Below are positions 690-11,766 of a DNA stretch of 38,132 nt, one piece after another. This DNA comes from Saprospiraceae bacterium (lineage in GTDB: Bacteria; Bacteroidota; Bacteroidia; Chitinophagales; Saprospiraceae), in the NCBI GenBank assembly GCA_020631375.1, contig JAHDHJ010000007.1, forward strand, positions 1-38,132, given 5' to 3'. The position numbers and the translations under genes are program-made. Below the pieces are notes generated by a model. It was given only the letters and a program-made list of their open reading frames with translations. It had not been told where the DNA came from and searched no databases. Numbering within the stretch: position 1 is the first letter of the stretch; each line of letters begins with the position of its first letter.

Positions 690-718
690 AACACAAGATA
701 TCTAAATAATACTTGAAT

Positions 719-1132
719 ATGGGAAAGAAAATCTTAGTTGTATTAGCGGGAATAGTAATATCCGCGATAGTAATAGGAGTTATTGAATTTATAGGCCATC
801 AAGTTTTTCCTCCTCCAGCGGATTTGGATATTACAAATAAGGAAATGATGGCAGATTTTATAGCAAATCTTCCTTTAGGGGCATTATTGTTTGTAGTGGG
901 TGCTTGGTTAATCGGACCATTGGTGGGGTCTTTTATAGCATGTAAGTTCATGCCAGAAGAATGGAGGCACATTGCGATAGGAATCGGTGTGGCAATAGCT
1001 ATTTTTACCGTAATGAATATAATGATGTTTCCACATCCTCTTTGGATGACTGTGGTAGGGGCTTTATTTCCTTTACCCATGGCTTATTTGGGTGGAATGC
1101 TAGCAGTAGGGAAAGCCAATAAGGGAACTTGA
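719..1132 (+). CDS. Small integral membrane protein of unknown function
   Basis: A 137-residue hydrophobic protein with about four predicted membrane segments: residues 4-25, about 50-75, about 84-103 and about 107-130. The N-terminal segment could also be an uncleaved signal anchor. The loop between the first and second segments carries acidic residues and FPPPADLD. I chose the ATG at 719; an in-frame TTG two codons upstream (713) is a possible but less likely start. I do not recognise the family. It converges on the gtrA-like gene with only 8 bp between the stop codons and no obvious terminator between them. The leader upstream contains competing hairpins. Confidence 0.65.
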   Translation: MGKKILVVLAGIVISAIVIGVIEFIGHQVFPPPADLDITNKEMMADFIANLPLGALLFVVGAWLIGPLVGSFIACKFMPEEWRHIAIGIGVAIAIFTVMNIMMFPHPLWMTVVGALFPLPMAYLGGMLAVGKANKGT

Positions 1133-1140
1133 AGTAATTT

Positions 1141-1566
1141 TTATTTGTAAACAAAAAACCGTTGCATTGGATAGTTGAAAGCTAAACCGATTAGGATTGA
1201 AGTAATGAATTTAGCTATCATCAGATTTTTGATCTGCAATATTTCTACAAAAAATGCTACTCCTGCGGTATTGAGGATGATACTGCCTATGGCTGTTATC
1301 AAAAATTTGAGCCCTTGGTGGGATAATTTGCCATCCGTACTCATAAACGCCCAGTGTCGCCCAAGGAAGAACGCGGTTATCGCTCCTGCTGTTGCTGCAA
1401 TTGCGGTAGCATAGGGATAGAAGACACCTAATATATAATGAGTGAACATCAATGTGAGATAATCCACTGATGTGGCAAGAAATGCACTGATATTGTAGCG
1501 GATAAAAGACTTTTTAGTAGAAATCTTTTCTTCCGTTTTATTTTGTGTATTGTTTTTCTTGCTCAA
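1141..1566 (-). CDS. GtrA family membrane protein
   Basis: A 141-residue protein with a charged, Lys-rich N-terminus (about 20 residues) followed by four membrane segments. The C-terminal FNYPMQRFFVYK resembles the closing motif of the GtrA family, and GRHWAF in the middle also fits. GtrA proteins are thought to move polyprenyl-linked sugars or other lipid-linked groups across the inner membrane. Its start lies 2 bp after the stop of the PgpA-type phosphatase gene, so the two are almost certainly co-transcribed. Context suggests a role in translocating or modifying inositol lipids, but that is inference. Confidence 0.8.
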   Translation of the reverse strand: MSKKNNTQNKTEEKISTKKSFIRYNISAFLATSVDYLTLMFTHYILGVFYPYATAIAATAGAITAFFLGRHWAFMSTDGKLSHQGLKFLITAIGSIILNTAGVAFFVEILQIKNLMIAKFITSILIGLAFNYPMQRFFVYK

Positions 1567-1568
1567 AA

Positions 1569-2060
1569 TTATCCTAGAATTGTTTTGAGAACTCCGGAAT
1601 AAACAATGATTTGGAGAATGATATTCGCATAAATACCTGCTACGACATCATCAAACATAACGCCATATCCTCCTTTCCAAGATTCGAAATACTTTATTCC
1701 CAATGGTTTTAGAATATCAAAGAACCTAAATAGAATGAATGCCAAAATCAAGTTGGTCCAAGTCATGGGAATGAATAGACAGCTAATCCATAAACCTATG
1801 GTTTCGTCCATGACTATTTTTCCAGGGTCATGACCCCATTCGCTTTCCAATTCATTGGTACTCCAAATACCCAATAAGAGGAATATTATAGTCAGTATGA
1901 TTAAAATGATATTCAAATTCATGGGACTGACATTAATCCATCCGCTTAATGATAATATCCAAACAATGATACATCCGAAAATAGCTCCGAATGTACCCGG
2001 TGCAACCGGAGCGAAACCGAAACCAAAACTGGTGGCTATTATTTTTGCTATTTCTTTCAT
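1569..2060 (-). CDS. PgpA-type lipid phosphate phosphatase, likely acting on phosphatidylinositol phosphate
   Basis: A 163-residue PgpA family membrane protein. The family motifs are present: FGFAPVAPGTFG near residues 14-25, HDPGKIVMDETIG around residue 77, RFFDILKPLGI around residue 113, and GGYGVMFDDVVAG around residue 130. PgpA normally dephosphorylates phosphatidylglycerophosphate. In Bacteroidota inositol-lipid clusters the PgpA homologue removes the phosphate from phosphatidylinositol 3-phosphate, giving phosphatidylinositol. The neighbouring inositol-phosphate synthase and CDP-alcohol transferase favour that reading here. A strong terminator (2108-2142) separates it from the synthase gene upstream, so it depends on readthrough or on its own promoter, which I could not find. 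Classical PGP phosphatase activity remains the alternative. Confidence 0.85.
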   Translation of the reverse strand: MKEIAKIIATSFGFGFAPVAPGTFGAIFGCIIVWILSLSGWINVSPMNLNIILIILTIIFLLLGIWSTNELESEWGHDPGKIVMDETIGLWISCLFIPMTWTNLILAFILFRFFDILKPLGIKYFESWKGGYGVMFDDVVAGIYANIILQIIVYSGVLKTILG

Positions 2061-2107
2061 GGAAAAAGGGTAGTGGTAGTCTAGTATTGCTTAATTAATT
2101 TAGGCAT

Positions 2108-2142
2108 AAAAAAACCTCCTAGAATTTCTAGGAGGTTTTTTT
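2108..2142 (-). terminator. Intrinsic terminator after the inositol-3-phosphate synthase gene
   Basis: CCTCCTAGAA (2115-2124) and TTCTAGGAGG (2126-2135) form a near-perfect hairpin. Seven As lie on one side and seven Ts on the other, so it can work in both directions. On the minus strand it sits 14 bp after the stop codon of the synthase gene. Confidence 0.85.
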
Positions 2143-2155
2143 ATATTATGGATGA

Positions 2156-3472
2156 TTATTCCTCATAATAATCCAAACCCAAGTGAGTGATTAAATCCTC
2201 TCCGCTGATATGTCGAAGTGTATTTTCTAACTTCTCCAATTGTTTGAATAAATCATGTTGTGGATATAAGTCCTTTTTGGTTTGTGGCGATTTCAAGTAG
2301 AAAGACAACCATTCTTGGATGCCACCCATACCTGAACGTTTAGCCAAATCAAGGAATAAAGCCAAATCCAAAACCAAAGGAGCAGCCAAGATGGAATCCC
2401 TACAAAGGAAATCCACTTTGATTTGCATTGGGTAATCCAACCAACCTTTGATATCGATATTGTCCCAACCTTCCTTATTGTCTCCACGTGGTGGGTAATA
2501 GTTGATTCTTACCTTATGGTAGAGATCCCCATATAATTCAGGATGTAATTCAGGTTCCAGGATTTGTTCCAAAACACTGAGTTTTGATACTTCCTTAGTT
2601 TTGAAATTATCCGGATCGTCCAATACTTCCCCATCCCTGTTTCCTAGGATATTGGTAGAGAACCAACCTTCTATTCCTAGCATTCTGGCTTTCATTCCAG
2701 GAGCTATAATCGTCTTGATCAGTGTTTGTCCTGTTTTGAAATCCTTACCTGCTATTGGCGTTTGTGTTTGCTTGGCTAATTCCACCATTGCAGGAACATC
2801 ACATGATAGGTTAGGAGCGCCATTGGCATAAGCCACACCGGTTTTGACAGCTGCATAAGCATAAATCATACTTGGTGCAATGTCATGGTGGTTATTTCTT
2901 AAACCCTCTTCGAGATTAGCTACGGTTTGGTGTACTTCAGATTCTTCTATATAGATTTCAGTAGATCCACACCAGACCATGACCACTCTATCACAACCAT
3001 TTTCTTTCTTGAAGTTTTCAATATCCTGCATGACCATTTCAGCCAACTGCATTTTATTGTCAGCTTCCTTGACATTAGGCCCATCCAATTTCTTGACATA
3101 TTTTCTATCGAAAACAGCCTTCATTGGTTTTATAGCTTGCAATTCCTCTTTAATGCTATCTAAAAGATTTTTATCCAATACATTAGCATGGATAGCTGCT
3201 TCATAAACATTATCTTCAAATAAATCCCATCCTCCGAAAACTACATCTTCCAAAGGAGCGATATCTACCAATTCCTTAATAAGTGGTTTCTTCTTATCTG
3301 TTCTTTTACCTACTCTAATGGTTCCCATTTGAGTAAGAGAGCCGATTGGATTAGACAAGCCTCTTCTGACAGCTACGCATCCTGCAATGAATGTAGTGGC
3401 AACAGCTCCCATTCCCGGAAGTAATATGCCTAGTTTACCTTTGTGGGGTTGTACAGTTGGTTTATCAGCCAT
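2156..3472 (-). CDS. Myo-inositol-3-phosphate synthase (Ino1/MIPS type)
   Basis: A 438-residue enzyme that converts glucose 6-phosphate to 1D-myo-inositol 3-phosphate using bound NAD. Recognisable features are the nucleotide-binding start GILLPGMGAVATTFIAG (residues 15-31), FGGWDLFEDN (about 79-88), and the family signature region with AGKDFKTGQT and GWFSTNILGNRDG (about 245-285), which includes active-site lysine and asparagine residues. The length suits the bacterial branch. It has its own consensus promoter (3575-3604) and its own terminator (2108-2142), so it can be expressed apart from its neighbours. It lies between a CDP-alcohol phosphatidyltransferase gene and a PgpA-type phosphatase gene, the usual company in Bacteroidota inositol-lipid synthesis. 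Confidence 0.93.
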   Translation of the reverse strand: MADKPTVQPHKGKLGILLPGMGAVATTFIAGCVAVRRGLSNPIGSLTQMGTIRVGKRTDKKKPLIKELVDIAPLEDVVFGGWDLFEDNVYEAAIHANVLDKNLLDSIKEELQAIKPMKAVFDRKYVKKLDGPNVKEADNKMQLAEMVMQDIENFKKENGCDRVVMVWCGSTEIYIEESEVHQTVANLEEGLRNNHHDIAPSMIYAYAAVKTGVAYANGAPNLSCDVPAMVELAKQTQTPIAGKDFKTGQTLIKTIIAPGMKARMLGIEGWFSTNILGNRDGEVLDDPDNFKTKEVSKLSVLEQILEPELHPELYGDLYHKVRINYYPPRGDNKEGWDNIDIKGWLDYPMQIKVDFLCRDSILAAPLVLDLALFLDLAKRSGMGGIQEWLSFYLKSPQTKKDLYPQHDLFKQLEKLENTLRHISGEDLITHLGLDYYEE

Positions 3473-3574
3473 TTTTATTTTTTAATATTTTGATTAGAAT
3501 TCTGTTTGATTAACATATAACGAAAGTGAATAGCAAAATGATTGCTGTCATATCCGTTTATTTTTAATTTAGTG

Positions 3575-3604
3575 CAAATATATTCACTTTGTTTGGGCTT
3601 CCAA
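3575..3604 (-). promoter_or_regulatory. Bacteroidota-type promoter for the inositol-3-phosphate synthase gene
   Basis: On the minus strand, TTG (3604-3602), exactly 19 nt, and TATATTTG (3582-3575) match the Bacteroidota sigma-A consensus TTG-N19-TAnnTTTG. The -33 element lies inside the 3' end of the CDP-alcohol transferase gene. The predicted start near 3568 leaves a leader of about 95 nt before the ATG at 3472. Confidence 0.7.
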
Positions 3605-4285
3605 TTGTTCTTTGGAAAATTTTAATCTTCTAAGGGCTGTTAGGTTCGCCCAAATCGCCAAAATGAAGATGGGACCACTGAAAATAGTAATGGTTTGGAA
3701 TTTCGGAAGCGGCGGATAATTCAAGTCAAAATAAACGCTATTTCCAAAAAATCCTGAAACCAGACCGCATATTACAGCCGAAACGCCTACAATAAGTATC
3801 CTTTCCGGCCTTTGCATAATACCTACACTACAATCCACTCCTAACCCTTCCGCCCTAGCTCTGGTATAGCTGACCATTATAGAACCAATCATGGCAACGA
3901 ATGCAGCGATAGAGCCTATGAAATAGTGATGGGCTACAAGGTAGTAACAAATTCCCAGGAACATAATGAGTTCACTATACCTATCAAGTACGGAATCGAA
4001 CAATGCCCCATATGTAGATGCTGATTTGCCAACTCTTGCCAAACGTCCGTCCACCATATCCATGAGTCCGGCAATGAGGATGATTGCTCCAGCATATCCA
4101 ATAGTGGAATGATCGGAACGATCCCCAAATTCTGCACCAAGGATGAAAATTATTGTTGCTAGAAGATTAAGAATAAATCCGAGGAAAGTTATCATATTGG
4201 GCGTTATGCCCAATTTAATTAAGAGATTAATTAAAGGGTTGATGAGATTATAAATGAGTTCTTGTCCGCTTCGCTTCCAGTCCAT
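3584..4285 (-). CDS. CDP-alcohol phosphatidyltransferase, probable phosphatidylinositol (phosphate) synthase
   Basis: A 233-residue polytopic membrane enzyme. The complete CDP-alcohol phosphotransferase motif, D-x2-D-G-x2-A-R-x8-G-x3-D-x3-D, is present at about residues 75-100 (DMVDGRLAR, then G-ALF-D-SVL-D). About six hydrophobic segments are visible. The family joins CDP-diacylglycerol to an alcohol such as glycerol 3-phosphate, serine or inositol (phosphate). Being next to the inositol-3-phosphate synthase gene suggests inositol 3-phosphate as acceptor, giving phosphatidylinositol phosphate for the PgpA-type enzyme. A PgsA-like role cannot be excluded from sequence alone. A TAACTTTG element (4297-4290) lies just before the start codon but lacks a TTG partner. 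Confidence 0.85.
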   Translation of the reverse strand: MDWKRSGQELIYNLINPLINLLIKLGITPNMITFLGFILNLLATIIFILGAEFGDRSDHSTIGYAGAIILIAGLMDMVDGRLARVGKSASTYGALFDSVLDRYSELIMFLGICYYLVAHHYFIGSIAAFVAMIGSIMVSYTRARAEGLGVDCSVGIMQRPERILIVGVSAVICGLVSGFFGNSVYFDLNYPPLPKFQTITIFSGPIFILAIWANLTALRRLKFSKEQLEAQTK

Positions 4286-4405
4286 CAGGCAAAGTTAAAA
4301 TAGGTTTAAGTTTATTTTAATAAAATACTATGAAATTCATGATAATTATGCTTTTAATTCGTTTTTATTTTACAAATTACTTGGAATTGTCTGATAAAAC
4401 CGATT

Positions 4406-5638
4406 TTACTTCTTCATAATTTCATGCCCCATTTTATCTCGTTTGGTTTTTAGATAAAATTCATTGTGGATATTAGGGGGAATTTCTATGGCTATATTTT
4501 CCACGATTTCCAATCCGTATCCAATTAAACCTATCCGTTTCTTCGGATTGTTGCTCAATAGTTTGATTTTAGAAATATTGAGATCACGTAAAATTTGTGC
4601 ACCTATGCCATAATCTCTCTGATCCATTTTGAAACCTAATTTCTGATTGGCTTCATAGGTATCATATCCTTGTTCTTGGAGTTTGTAGGCCTTGAGTTTG
4701 TTCAATAAACCTATTCCTCGCCCCTCTTGCCTCATATATAAAACCAAACCGGCACCTTCTTCATCGATTCTTTTCATTGCAGCATGCAATTGTGGCCCAC
4801 AATCACATCTCAAAGAACCAAGTATATCTCCGGTTTCACATGAGGAATGGACTCTGACCAATACTGGGTCGCCGGGATTCCAATCTCCTTTTTTCAAGGC
4901 AAGATGGGTATCTCCGCTAGTCAGGTCGGTATAAGCAATCAATTCAAACTCGCCCCATTGTGTAGGCATTTTTATAGCGGTTTCCCTTTCTATAAGCCTT
5001 TCGTTATTCATTCTATATGCTACCAAATCCTTTATGGAGATAATCTTAAGGTTGAATTTCTCAGCCACTAGAAGTAAATCCGGCAAACGTGCCATAGTAC
5101 CATCTTCATTCAATATCTCAATAAGGGCAGCAGCAGGGTAGTGTCCTGCCATTTTTGCCAAATCTATGGCTGCTTCCGTATGTCCCGTTCTTCTGAGTAC
5201 TCCTCCTTCTTTGGCAATTAAGGGGTGTAAATGTCCCGGTCTGCCATAATCGCTTGCAGTAGTATCCGGACGTGCCAAAGCTTTTATTCCACTCGACCTA
5301 TCGAATGCGGAGATTCCGGTGGTACATCCGGGTCCTTTATAATCAATGGAAATCGTGAAAGCGGTTTTATGAAGATCCGTATTGTTCTTTACCATTAATG
5401 GCAATCCTAATTCTGTCGCTCTTTCCTGAGTGATGGGAGTGCATAATTGCCCTTTTCCTTGGGTAATCATAAAATTGACCAATTCAGGGGTCATGCTTTC
5501 TGCGGAAGCAATGAAATCACCTTCATTTTCTCGGTCTTCATCATCTACTACGATGACTAATCTTCCTGCTTTGATTTCTTCAATCGCTTCAGGGATAGTG
5601 TTGAGTTTAATCGGGGCGTTGTGTTGGTTGCCAGACAT
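4406..5638 (-). CDS. ribBA: Bifunctional 3,4-dihydroxy-2-butanone 4-phosphate synthase / GTP cyclohydrolase II
   Basis: A 410-residue fusion catalysing the two entry reactions of riboflavin synthesis. The RibB half (about residues 10-205) shows the acidic [11 protein letters not shown] motif near residue 32 and [17 protein letters not shown] near residue 150. The RibA half (about 210-405) shows the zinc site C-x10-C-x-C in [17 protein letters not shown] near residue 270, and [19 protein letters not shown]. The start ATG lies 32 bp inside the 3' end of the upstream glycosyltransferase gene, so translation is probably coupled. No FMN riboswitch is visible, and none would fit before this start. 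Other riboflavin genes are not in the window. Confidence 0.95.
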
Positions 5639-6827
5639 TGCTTTTAATTCCTTTTAAATAATTGATGAAACCTTGCAATAAGGCAATATTCATCATGAAA
5701 AAATACCTGATAGATCGAAAAAGACCTATGTTGATATTGAAAGATTGTAAAATCAGGTCAAATATCGGAATAATCATTATCAATACCACTTGAAATACTA
5801 ACAAAATGATATAGAATAAGTTGCCATCTAAGCTTAGAATAACATTGGCAGTGAAAGAAAATAGGATAAAGAAAGGACCTAGCCAGCGTAATGCCTTATG
5901 GGATAAGAAGTTGAATGCGATATATCCTTTGCTGGGAAGCAAGAGATGTTTGTAAGTAGAGAGGTTTTGAAAATTCCCTGCGGAAATTCTTGATTTTCTT
6001 CTGTACTCTTCTTTTATATGGTGTGAAACGGATTCTTTGCAAATGGCTTCTAATTCGTTAATGGCATTCTTTCCTTGATCCAGAACATTCATTGCCAAGA
6101 AAAAATCATCTACGAGATAATTTTCCGGTACAGGAATAAAGAGATCTGAACGCAAGGCATAACAACCGCCGAATGGGCCCATCATTTTTCCTGAAATAAT
6201 ACTTTCCTGATGTTTCAATTGGACTTCTCTGGAAATATAAATGTCTTCCGATTTTGAAATACCTTCTTTTTTCATTCCCGTATGCATCATATTGGAGTCA
6301 ACGAGTCCTATTTTCTCATTTTTAAAATGCTTGGCTAAATGGAAAATCGTTGACTGGCTTAAAATAACACTGGCATCGGTAATGACGAAAATATGCTCAC
6401 TTCCTTTTTTATTTTTTATGATGGCTTTTTCCGCCAATTGATTAATAACGCCGGGTTTTCCTTGTCGGTTTAGGAATGGAATGAAATGGAAATTACTAAG
6501 CTTATTTTTATTGACGAAATCGGAAACTATGGAATTGGTATTGTCAGAAGAATTATCGGAACCGATATAAAAATCAATTTTATTTTTTGGATATTTTTGA
6601 AGGAAAAATGATTTTATTTTTTCTTCAATTATTTTTTCTTCATTAAATAAAGACATTAAAACAGAGACATTAGGGAGTTCATTTTCTTCTTGATGGATAA
6701 TTTGGTTTGTCTTTTTATTTTTTGATAATAATTTTAAAATAAATGGGAAAATAAAATAACTGTAAACCAAGGAGAATACACTGGCCCCAAAAATGAATAG
6801 CAAAAAGATATTGGAGATTTCTTCCAT
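5607..6827 (-). CDS. Membrane-bound family 2 glycosyltransferase
   Basis: A 406-residue GT2 protein. One membrane segment at residues 7-35 precedes a GT-A catalytic domain (about 50-290) with [11 protein letters not shown], the nucleotide-binding [12 protein letters not shown] in place of DxD, and [13 protein letters not shown], where DD would hold the catalytic base. [15 protein letters not shown] corresponds to the processive-enzyme R/Q-rich motif. Three or four more membrane segments follow (about 310-395). The layout resembles exopolysaccharide synthases of the cellulose-synthase-like group. The start codon directly abuts the stop of the GT4 gene, and the end overlaps ribBA. The acceptor is unknown; cell-surface polysaccharide or a lipid are both possible. 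Confidence 0.85.
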
Positions 6828-8045
6828 TTATTCTGCTTTTGTTTTTTGACTGATTTCTTCCATTTTATTTTTTAATTTTAATGCAATATTTATTTCATCA
6901 AATTGTTCTAAAATAAAGTTTTCTGCATTTTTCCCTATTTCCAATATCTGCGATTTATTTTTTTTACAATAATCAATTGCTTGGATATATTCTTCGATTC
7001 CATCAGCGATGAGTACTTCTTTTTTTTCTTTGGCAGAAATGCCTTCCAAACCCAATGTCGAGGTAATAACAACCCGTCCCAAGGCCATGCCCTCTAGGAT
7101 TTTTACCCGCATTCCGCTACCGGATTTCAAGGGGACTACCATGATAGGATGGTCATTGATAAATGATTTTGCATCATCGACTTCTCCGTGGACAAATATA
7201 TTTTTCTTTTTTAAATCCAAAATTTCTTTTGGTGTATTTCTTCCGGCGATGTGGAATTCTATTTCTGGGTGTGCTTCTGATATTTTATCCCAAATATGAT
7301 TGATAAACCAATTCAGTCCCTCAAGATTGGGTCGCCAATCCAATGAGCCGATGAATGAAATGGAAATGTTATTTTCAAAAACTTTATAATTAGGAATGTA
7401 ATCTTTTTTTCCTATTCCGATAGGAATATAAATAGCAGGTTTTTTCAAACCTAAATTCTTATACCTATTCAAATCTTTTTCTGAAATAGCAGCAAATAAA
7501 TCATACTGATTCATCTGTTTTATTTCAAATCCTTTTAATCTTTTTGCCAATAAGGATAAATACCATTTCTTAGGAAAGAAACCAGTGTTCTGAGTTATTC
7601 TTTCCCAAATTTCAAATTCCACATTATGCGAACGCATAAGAATTTTTGCATTGGAATATTTTCTGATAATGGGAATATAAGCCGCTAGAACCAAGGTCTC
7701 TAATTGGACGAAATCAAATTCTTTTCCCGAAAGTATTTCTATCAATTTATTGGAAAAAGCTTCTGAAATAAAACGACTGATATGAAAAGATTCTTTGGAG
7801 AAAATATTGAGAATAGCATCCTTGATATAAATATTATTATCTACATCTACGAGTTCTATAAAAGAATAATGATTGGATTGTTCGGGAAAGGAATTTTCCT
7901 CAAACCGATGCCTTGAAGTATTCATGGATAATAATCCAATCTCACAAGCTACCTCTTTCAGTGATTTGCTCAAGTGCATGACTGCTAATGATTCGCCATC
8001 TTTAGCAGGGTAGGGAAATTTTTTGCACAATTGTAGTATTCTCAT
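6828..8045 (-). CDS. Family 4-like glycosyltransferase (GT-B fold)
   Basis: A 405-residue cytosolic GT-B glycosyltransferase. The N-terminal half starts MRILQLCKKFPYPAKDGES, typical of sugar transferases that bind their acceptor here. The C-terminal half has SFIGSLDWRPNLEGL near residue 230 and the donor-binding EX7E-like region with SGSGMRVKILEGMALG near residue 315. The acceptor and sugar cannot be read from sequence. It is the first gene of a run leading into the GT2 and ribBA genes with no spacing. A TAATTTTG element (8069-8062), without a clear TTG partner, is the best promoter candidate and would give a very short leader. Confidence 0.85.
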   Translation of the reverse strand: MRILQLCKKFPYPAKDGESLAVMHLSKSLKEVACEIGLLSMNTSRHRFEENSFPEQSNHYSFIELVDVDNNIYIKDAILNIFSKESFHISRFISEAFSNKLIEILSGKEFDFVQLETLVLAAYIPIIRKYSNAKILMRSHNVEFEIWERITQNTGFFPKKWYLSLLAKRLKGFEIKQMNQYDLFAAISEKDLNRYKNLGLKKPAIYIPIGIGKKDYIPNYKVFENNISISFIGSLDWRPNLEGLNWFINHIWDKISEAHPEIEFHIAGRNTPKEILDLKKKNIFVHGEVDDAKSFINDHPIMVVPLKSGSGMRVKILEGMALGRVVITSTLGLEGISAKEKKEVLIADGIEEYIQAIDYCKKNKSQILEIGKNAENFILEQFDEINIALKLKNKMEEISQKTKAE

Positions 8046-10575: not shown

Positions 10576-11766
10576 ATGTTCGATAAAGTAAGGTCATCCA
10601 TACAAGGAGAATTAAATGAGATTAGAGAAGCGGGTTTGTTCAAAGAAGAAAGAATAATCGTGAGTCCCCAATCTGCTGAAATCAAAACGGATAAGGGTTT
10701 GGAAGTCCTGAATTTTTGTGCGAATAATTATCTGGGCTTGTCCTCACATCCGGAAGTAATAGAAGCTGCCAAAGCAACGATAGATACACATGGTTTTGGT
10801 TTGTCTTCTGTTCGTTTCATTTGCGGAACACAAGATATTCATAAGGAATTGGAAGAAAAGATTTCTACATTCCTAGGAATGGAAGATACTATTTTATACG
10901 CAGCTGCATTTGATGCCAACGGAGGTGTTTTCGAACCTTTGTTAACTAAGGAGGATGCGATTATTTCTGATGAATTGAACCACGCTTCCATCATAGATGG
11001 AATCAGGTTGTGCAAAGCGGAACGTTACAGATACAAGCACAACAATATGGAAGACTTGGAAGCACAATTGAAAGCTGCCCAAGGTGCAAGGCGAAGAATG
11101 ATTGCGACGGATGGCTCCTTTTCTATGGATGGAACTATAGCCCAACTGGATAAGATTTGCGACCTTGCAGATAAATATGATGCAATGATCATGGTGGACG
11201 AATGCCATTCGACCGGTTTTTTGGGGAAAACGGGTAGGGGAGTACATGAGTACAGAAATGTAATGGGTAGGATTGACATCATAACGGGTACTTTAGGAAA
11301 GGCATTAGGTGGTGCATCAGGTGGATTTACTGCAGCAAGAAAGGAAATCGTGGATATGTTGAGACAAAAATCCCGCCCATATTTATTTTCCAATACAGTA
11401 GCTCCCGCTATTGTAGGAGCATCTATAAAAGTATTGGATATTCTTTCTTCTTCTACGGCTTTGAGGGATAAATTGGAAGAAAATACCCGGTTTTTCAGAA
11501 CTGAAATGACCCAAGCAGGTTTTGATATAGTTCCGGGAGAACATCCGATAGTTCCGATTATGTTATATGATGCACCTTTGGCGCAGGAGTTTGCAGCTCG
11601 TTTATTATCCGAGGGCATTTATGTTATCGGTTTCTTTTATCCGGTAGTTCCCAAAGGGAAAGCAAGAATCAGGGTCCAAATGTCTGCCGGACATGAAAGG
11701 AAACATTTGGTGAAAGCAGTGGCTGCATTCACTAAAATTGGAAAAGAATTGGGGGTGGTAAAATAG
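10576..11766 (+). CDS. kbl: Glycine C-acetyltransferase (2-amino-3-ketobutyrate CoA ligase)
   Basis: A 396-residue PLP enzyme of the alpha-oxoamine synthase family. It cleaves 2-amino-3-ketobutyrate with CoA to glycine and acetyl-CoA. The PLP-binding lysine is in [14 protein letters not shown] (about residue 243), and the cofactor aspartate and histidine are in [12 protein letters not shown] (about residue 208). [16 protein letters not shown] near the N-terminus is typical. It is paralogous to bioF in this window, but the match to Kbl and the upstream threonine dehydrogenase gene settle the assignment. A bidirectional terminator (11788-11828) ends the operon. Confidence 0.95.

Follow-up and report, generated by a model that had tools for sequence, protein, structure and literature searches.

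Phosphatidylinositol (PI), a eukaryote-like lipid, is made by a described gene cluster in gut Bacteroides. In Bacteroides thetaiotaomicron the genes BT_1526, BT_1523, BT_1525 and BT_1522 make inositol phosphate, PI-phosphate (PIP), PI and phosphoinositol dihydroceramide, in that order, according to knock-outs in the accessible part of PMC9246714. BT_1524, in the same cluster, carries a GtrA motif. Here we describe a locus of this kind from a Saprospiraceae bacterium, which shares these genes with the gut Bacteroides. The stretch analysed (the window, 38,132 nucleotides of contig JAHDHJ010000007.1) is contig 152 of a 4.14 Mb draft genome, 88% complete; its nearest named relative is a Saprospiraceae metagenome-assembled genome (L170, JAHDFN010000105.1). 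Four genes encode a PIP synthase (PIPS), an inositol-phosphate synthase (MIPS), a PgpA-type phosphatase and a GtrA-family protein, the counterparts of BT_1523, BT_1526, BT_1525 and BT_1524. The pathway is that published for BT_1522-1526 and so is not new. We hold with moderate confidence that this is a PI synthesis locus of that kind whose GtrA moves PI outward, the last being a step that we infer.

Two papers of 2022, known to us from their accessible parts, report conflicting results for deletion of BT_1524. By thin-layer chromatography the mutant phenocopied its parent (PMC9246714), whereas by liquid chromatography-mass spectrometry its inositol phosphoceramide was significantly reduced and the PI of its total membranes was raised (PMC8791184). 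The PI rise was absent in vesicles, in contrast to the BT_1522 deletion, and ceramide in the BT_1522, BT_1523 and BT_1526 mutants exceeded that of the wild type and of the BT_1524 mutant; the accessible text of PMC8791184 leaves the mechanism and role of BT1524 unknown. Our literature search on BT1524 returned these two papers as the only relevant ones; a search combining GtrA, phospholipid and CDP-alcohol phosphatidyltransferase returned PMC9246714 alone, and one on the combined ceramide and inositol cluster returned nothing recognised as relevant. How new inositol lipids and sphingolipids cross the inner membrane in Bacteroidota is the open question addressed here; for bacterial sphingolipids no flippase has been identified, according to the accessible part of PMC11087976.

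The four genes (Table 1) are transcribed in the order PIPS, MIPS, pgpA, gtrA, with spacers of 111, 95 and 2 bp. Reading frames and Pfam searches bear out the first-pass annotation of this DNA, which had described them as a row on one strand with clear family motifs. All four proteins score so far over the curated cut-offs (given second) that chance matches are excluded: PIPS has 63 bits to PF01066 CDP-OH_P_transf (22), MIPS 355 bits to PF07994 NAD_binding_5 (25) and 112 bits to PF01658 Inos-1-P_synth (27), PgpA 151 bits to PF04608 (28) and GtrA 56.6 bits to PF04138 GtrA_DPMS_TM (26.1). The annotation's assignment of a route from glucose 6-phosphate to PI likewise stands; it had overlooked that BT_1524 already lies in the known cluster and had been deleted twice. 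The tight pairing it saw between pgpA and gtrA is a gap of 2 bp given TTG as the gtrA start codon. In a genome of the same genus (G930) the gene order is identical, with 4-bp overlaps at the MIPS/PgpA and PgpA/GtrA junctions and protein identities to the window of 79% (PIPS), 90% (MIPS), 73% (PgpA) and 75% (GtrA).

The transferase does not group with PgsA; firm grouping of that kind, together with an absence of inositol lipids from the cells, is what the annotation had named as fatal to its proposal. Its best NCBIfam model is NF052561 PIPSynBT1523 at 324 bits (323.5 in the genome search), followed by archaetidylinositol phosphate synthase (132), PIP synthase (109) and pgsA (36), and we rejected PgsA on these scores. 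The score falls short of the 350-bit curated cut-off of that equivalog, which just 9 of 74 matching genomes of the family pass, and 13 of 395 phylum genomes. The best solved relatives are the PIP synthases of Mycobacterium tuberculosis and other actinobacteria (6h53, E 2.6e-16, 62 bits). The protein carries the PIP-synthase signature DxxDGxxARx8-9GxxxDxxxD as DMVDGRLAR...G...D...D, DMVDGRLARVGKSASTYGALFDSVLD. In the M. tuberculosis enzyme the arginines that bind inositol phosphate are R155 and R195; R162 and R220 of the window protein are invariant among 22 aligned sequences, and R220, at a position beyond the printed alignment, would be the equivalent of R195. The RPER motif aligns to 6h53, and the arginine of this motif binds inositol phosphate in solved PIP synthases (accessible part of PMC4634129).

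The top PDB match of MIPS is a solved inositol-3-phosphate synthase, 7nwr, which we take to be the B. thetaiotaomicron enzyme (E 1.5e-167, 561 bits, residues 4-426, nearly full length). The window PgpA is the sole PF04608 match detected in the genome. A genome search found three PF01066 proteins, namely PIPS, one with pssA as best model and one with phosphatidylcholine synthase, the latter two both under their models' cut-offs; no PgsA-type transferase was among them. A phosphatidylcholine-synthase-like CDP-alcohol transferase lies in the same genome at L061:10230-10985 (161 bits, cut-off 300). A single PgpA with no PgsA detected fits a PIP phosphatase over a phosphatidylglycerophosphate (PGP) phosphatase, and on sequence the window PgpA is best read as the former.

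Table 1. Features of the inositol lipid locus in window coordinates
Feature	Position	Strand	Description
PIPS	3584-4285	-	BT_1523-like CDP-alcohol phosphotransferase, phosphatidylinositol-phosphate synthase type
MIPS	2156-3472	-	BT_1526-like myo-inositol(-3)-phosphate synthase
PgpA	1569-2060	-	BT_1525-like PgpA-type phosphatase, best read as PIP phosphatase
GtrA	1141-1566	-	BT_1524-like GtrA-family four-helix membrane protein, TTG start
Inverted repeat	2105-2145	no strand	Perfect 19-bp repeat with A/T runs, terminator-like, in the MIPS/pgpA interval

GtrA is the only PF04138 match detected in the genome. Its predicted model (mean predicted local distance difference test score 90.6) has four helices, at residues 17-45, 50-73, 81-109 and 115-139, and the closest solved folds are membrane domains of dolichyl-phosphate mannose synthase (Foldseek E 0.05, probability 1.00; VIA Z 10.8, root mean square deviation 4.7 over 121 residues), a match clearly above the rows that follow it, yet at a level at which bundles of helices may give misleading hits. 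Searching the PDB by sequence with GtrA gave nothing useful (best E 0.46).

Linkage of gtrA to the PI genes was surveyed across related genomes. The PIPS model at E 1e-30 matched 74 of the 298 genomes of the family and 27 of the 395 of the class; 106 genomes had a chosen PIPS place, and 98 neighbourhoods (the window and 97 other stretches) were examined, eight family hits being left out. Many of the 98 loci are cut by contig ends. MIPS was present in 69 of them, gtrA in 50, pgpA in 48 and a synthase-like PAP2_3 gene in 73; when only the 55 loci with 6.5 kb or more on each side are counted, the figures become 48, 35, 32 and 41. Wherever gtrA and pgpA were both present (40 of 40 loci), gtrA followed pgpA directly, the gaps running from -25 to +44 bp. 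Eight pgpA loci had no gtrA, and some loci lacking one or the other gene lie at contig or stretch ends. A second set, of 80 named loci, included Chitinophaga, Pedobacter, Spirosoma, Hymenobacter, Dawidia and Mucilaginibacter; the open reading frame caller found PIPS in 79, and L225, with no PIPS found, was dropped. Here gtrA occurred in 48 of the 79 loci, 45 of them with pgpA, and was again directly behind pgpA in all 45 (gaps -26 to +488 bp); the 46 loci longer than 18 kb held gtrA in 37, MIPS in 40 and pgpA in 40. The two sets share genomes and are therefore not independent. The linkage is thus widespread, and the possibility that it was peculiar to this genome, which the annotation had raised against itself, is set aside. 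The puzzle posed by the BT_1524 knock-outs is now a phylum-wide pattern. One inositol lipid cluster (L215) is in a record that bears the name of a proteobacterium, Azovibrio restrictus, and is probably a mis-binned contig.

Co-occurrence points the same way. Among the 298 family genomes, GtrA of the cluster subfamily (at least 100 bits) was found in 67 of 74 genomes with PIPS vs 10 of 224 without, and the phosphoceramide synthase in 70 of 74 vs 2 of 224. The GtrA profile was built from cluster GtrAs and its 100-bit threshold was chosen after the gap between 100.9 and 83.2 bits had been seen, so the GtrA comparison is partly circular; the genomes are also related, so Fisher p values overstate independence. 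The co-occurrence supports a specialised GtrA subfamily, short of independent proof. In PIPS-positive genomes, 23 GtrA loci lay on contigs other than that of PIPS, 12 with pgpA and others with neither pgpA nor PIPS; some of these may be assembly breaks (e.g. L267, L271, L272).

Twelve family genomes hold a second GtrA of at least 100 bits, and in 12 of 12 it adjoins another, divergent CDP-alcohol phosphotransferase. The same transferase lies beside GtrA in 3 of 10 loci from PIPS-negative genomes, in 1 of the 23 other-contig loci, and in 0 of 15 loci of other GtrAs, a group set apart partly by construction. We use these counts by fetched group in place of a total of 16/16, which was rejected since those loci were chosen after seeing the neighbour. 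In 15 of the 16 loci the gene for the divergent transferase immediately precedes gtrA; the protein retains the four signature aspartates, in the form DSLDGR[IL]AY...G...D...D, with Y in place of the PIP-synthase R. The CDP-OH_P_transf model accounts for 14 of 80 neighbours of the 16 loci and does not rank in the top 25 families by frequency around other GtrAs. In a tree of 107 sequences the 16 paired GtrAs form one clade (support 0.98). The loci with their own GtrA clade are L273 (transferase at 3240-4333), L259, L274-L284, L287, L289 and L291.

A YegS/DAGK-type lipid kinase is directly behind 5 of 50, 8 of 45 and 1 of 49 GtrA genes in three sets, in several lineages (e.g. L137:4256-5137, L260:3093-4001). 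With the transferases, these kinases make the company of GtrA one of lipid head-group enzymes. Tentatively, and with less than even confidence, we suggest that a Bacteroidota branch of GtrA could consist of phospholipid flippases for products of CDP-alcohol phosphotransferases, with a PI clade and a sister clade for the second transferase. The second pair offers an independent test of the flippase idea.

The proposed scheme runs as follows, its enzyme steps being assigned by homology to the B. thetaiotaomicron knock-outs. MIPS would convert glucose 6-phosphate to inositol 3-phosphate, the CDP-alcohol phosphotransferase would join this to CDP-diacylglycerol to give PIP, and the PgpA-type phosphatase would yield PI, with all three products probably formed on the cytoplasmic side. 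GtrA, the four-helix protein, would then carry finished PI across the inner membrane, out of the cytoplasmic leaflet and into the periplasmic one. There, in relatives, a PAP2-type inositol phosphoceramide synthase may use it, or it could go on to the outer membrane. By a crude positive-inside estimate the HHYxxD catalytic motif of the synthase is outside in 65 of 67 sequences; with PI made on the cytoplasmic side, PI must then cross the membrane, and an obvious candidate for this is GtrA, whose family comprises putative flippases of lipid-linked sugars and which is linked here to PI enzymes. Slow flipping, or trapping of PI in the inner leaflet, is expected to raise PI, lower phosphoceramide and leave vesicle PI flat, as seen in the BT_1524 mutant. 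The initial suggestion of a role for GtrA in moving, or in helping to modify, an inositol lipid is unproven; the idea of a PI flippase is strengthened by the pgpA-gtrA pairing and by the second transferase-GtrA pair. If it is true, dedicated GtrA flippases would fill part of the missing transport in bacterial inositol sphingolipid synthesis.

Several observations weigh against this reading. Deletion of BT_1524 gave no lipid change by thin-layer chromatography (accessible part of PMC9246714), and ceramide, expected to accumulate if PI delivery were blocked completely, was not raised in the mutant. Two genomes listed as 100% complete, G870 and G980, have PIPS and the phosphoceramide synthase without subfamily GtrA; they are among seven PIPS genomes lacking it and indicate that GtrA is dispensable. 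Several Mucilaginibacter loci and one Fibrivirga locus are also without GtrA, and 10 of the 50 gtrA loci in the 98-locus survey lack a pgpA within reach. In 71 sequences the same topology estimate placed the synthase's PSLH motif outside 40 times and inside 31 times, the modelled GtrA fold appears common to the membrane domain of a mannosyltransferase, and the window draft genome gave no match to NF052609 (phosphoinositol dihydroceramide synthase) at E 1e-20. The unchanged ceramide, the chromatography result and the complete genomes without GtrA suggest either a redundant helper or that the flippase idea is wrong.

The cargo of a flippase might instead be a polyprenyl-phosphate-linked sugar or inositol, for an inositol-containing glycan or for glycosylation of an inositol lipid. 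This would accord with the characterised GtrA-family members, which are putative undecaprenyl-phosphate (C55-P)-sugar flippases (accessible part of PMC7389260), with the inositol traces in the B. thetaiotaomicron capsule, and with two glycosyltransferases on the same strand of the window, 1.3 kb farther (5607-6827 and 6828-8045). Capsular inositol is retained in the BT_1524 deletion, however (both capsule results from the accessible part of PMC9246714). No GtrB-type polyprenyl-phosphate glycosyltransferase partner was found among the scanned window genes at 713-5638; ribBA lies between the locus and the GT2 gene at 5607-6827, which did not turn up among the recurrent neighbours. The named recurrent neighbour families (ten clusters in one analysis, four in another) include no glycosyltransferase; of the 25 clusters that recur most, eight (14-20, 23) were left unnamed. 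We judge a sugar cargo unlikely.

Slightly less probable still, to our mind, is that GtrA transports nothing and instead serves PgpA or PIPS as a scaffold or stabilising partner, so that losing it slows flux slightly. The constant position behind pgpA, the mild and method-dependent knock-out phenotype and the pairing of second GtrA copies with another transferase would all suit such a partner. Its loss should lower PI or raise PIP, whereas PI rose in the BT_1524 mutant (accessible part of PMC8791184), and of the 23 other-contig GtrA loci 12 are with pgpA, others with neither supposed partner.

As a further alternative, GtrA might carry ceramide or oxidised ceramide, instead of PI, to the periplasm, and the ceramide genes do occur in many of the same clusters. 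The neighbours that recur there are a serine palmitoyltransferase-like aminotransferase, one protein each of the GNAT and epimerase families and a fatty acid hydroxylase, together with PAP2_3, DUF5686 and DUF4833 proteins. The PAP2_3 protein scores 311 bits against the model for phosphoinositol dihydroceramide synthase; from family and position the GNAT and epimerase proteins would be the bacterial ceramide synthase and ceramide reductase. Genes for ceramide and for inositol lipids are thus clustered with gtrA in many Bacteroidota. Ceramide transport by GtrA would supply the sphingolipid flippase that bacteria are not known to have, and also predicts the lower phosphoceramide and higher PI of the BT_1524 mutant; GtrA, however, tracks pgpA rather than the ceramide genes, and ceramide did not rise in that mutant (accessible part of PMC8791184). 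Nor did the 88% complete window genome show a GNAT ceramide-synthase family match, in a search that had no positive control there, or a serine palmitoyltransferase above cut-off: its two NF047600 matches (338 and 228 vs 640 bits) are a Kbl-like and a BioF-like protein. We regard ceramide as an improbable cargo. Least probable of all, and already strongly disfavoured, is that PgpA is a true phosphatidylglycerophosphatase neighbouring MIPS by accident, for which speak its score in the PgpA family and the BT1525 deletion not obtained in PMC8791184, and against which speak the lack of any PgsA in the set of CDP-alcohol transferases that the genome search picked up, the BT_1525 deletion that yielded PIP with other glycerophospholipids unaltered (PMC9246714; both papers in their accessible parts) and the repeated linkage of pgpA to MIPS and PIPS.

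Two candidates for sphingolipid genes in the window genome were considered. The Kbl-like protein at 10576-11766 was rejected as a serine palmitoyltransferase because it is a glycine C-acetyltransferase by score (706 bits, cut-off 493). A distant PAP2_3 protein on contig 304 has 198 bits to the cluster profile and just 50.9 bits to NF052609 (cut-off 480); it is at best a doubtful candidate for the inositol phosphoceramide synthase. The same-genus genome G930 has an NF052609 match of 339 bits on another contig.

Transcription of the four genes may not be as a single unit. The inverted repeat between MIPS and pgpA is predicted to fold at -24.2 kcal/mol (z -8.4; none of 200 shuffled versions did as well), is present in a single genomic copy allowing up to 3 mismatches, and looks like a two-way terminator, so that pgpA-gtrA could be transcribed separately from PIPS-MIPS. 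A consensus terminator scan did not list the repeat; it returned two terminator-like sites vs 2.8 expected by chance. At the same junction G930 has its 4-bp overlap in place of the repeat. Convergent with gtrA, at 713-1132, is a 139-residue protein with no Pfam or NCBIfam match, and G930 (L054) has a 137-residue frame at the matching position.

Other recurrent neighbours were seen in the survey. DUF4833 proteins (L099:3134-3688 and 41 others, cluster c0) occur in 42 of 98 loci, often directly behind PIPS; our literature search found no mention of DUF4833. A large DUF5686 protein with a carboxypeptidase-regulatory-like domain (L086:8020-10755 and 42 others, cluster c5) recurs beside PIPS and is possibly related to BT_1527; an outer-membrane role is conceivable. 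One inositol lipid cluster includes a fatty acid desaturase with a sphingolipid Delta4-desaturase domain (L056:3939-4976).

Three known systems bear comparison with the window locus. In the BT_1522-1526 cluster, too, neighbouring genes encode a MIPS, a PIPS-type transferase, a PgpA-type phosphatase and a GtrA-type protein; the window differs in its gene order, PIPS-MIPS-PgpA-GtrA, and in having no BT_1522-type synthase at the locus. Two-step PI synthesis in mycobacteria and Renibacterium (PgsA1/PIPS) has in common the PIP intermediate, the transferase signature and the RPER arginine for inositol phosphate, whereas the sequence similarity of the window PIPS is low (62 bits to 6h53) and its PIP phosphatase is probably the adjoining PgpA-family protein. 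With the GtrA/GtcA putative undecaprenyl-phosphate-sugar flippases and the dolichyl-phosphate mannose synthase domain, the window GtrA shares PF04138 and the predicted four-helix fold; unlike theirs, the partners of GtrAs of the window type are lipid head-group enzymes.

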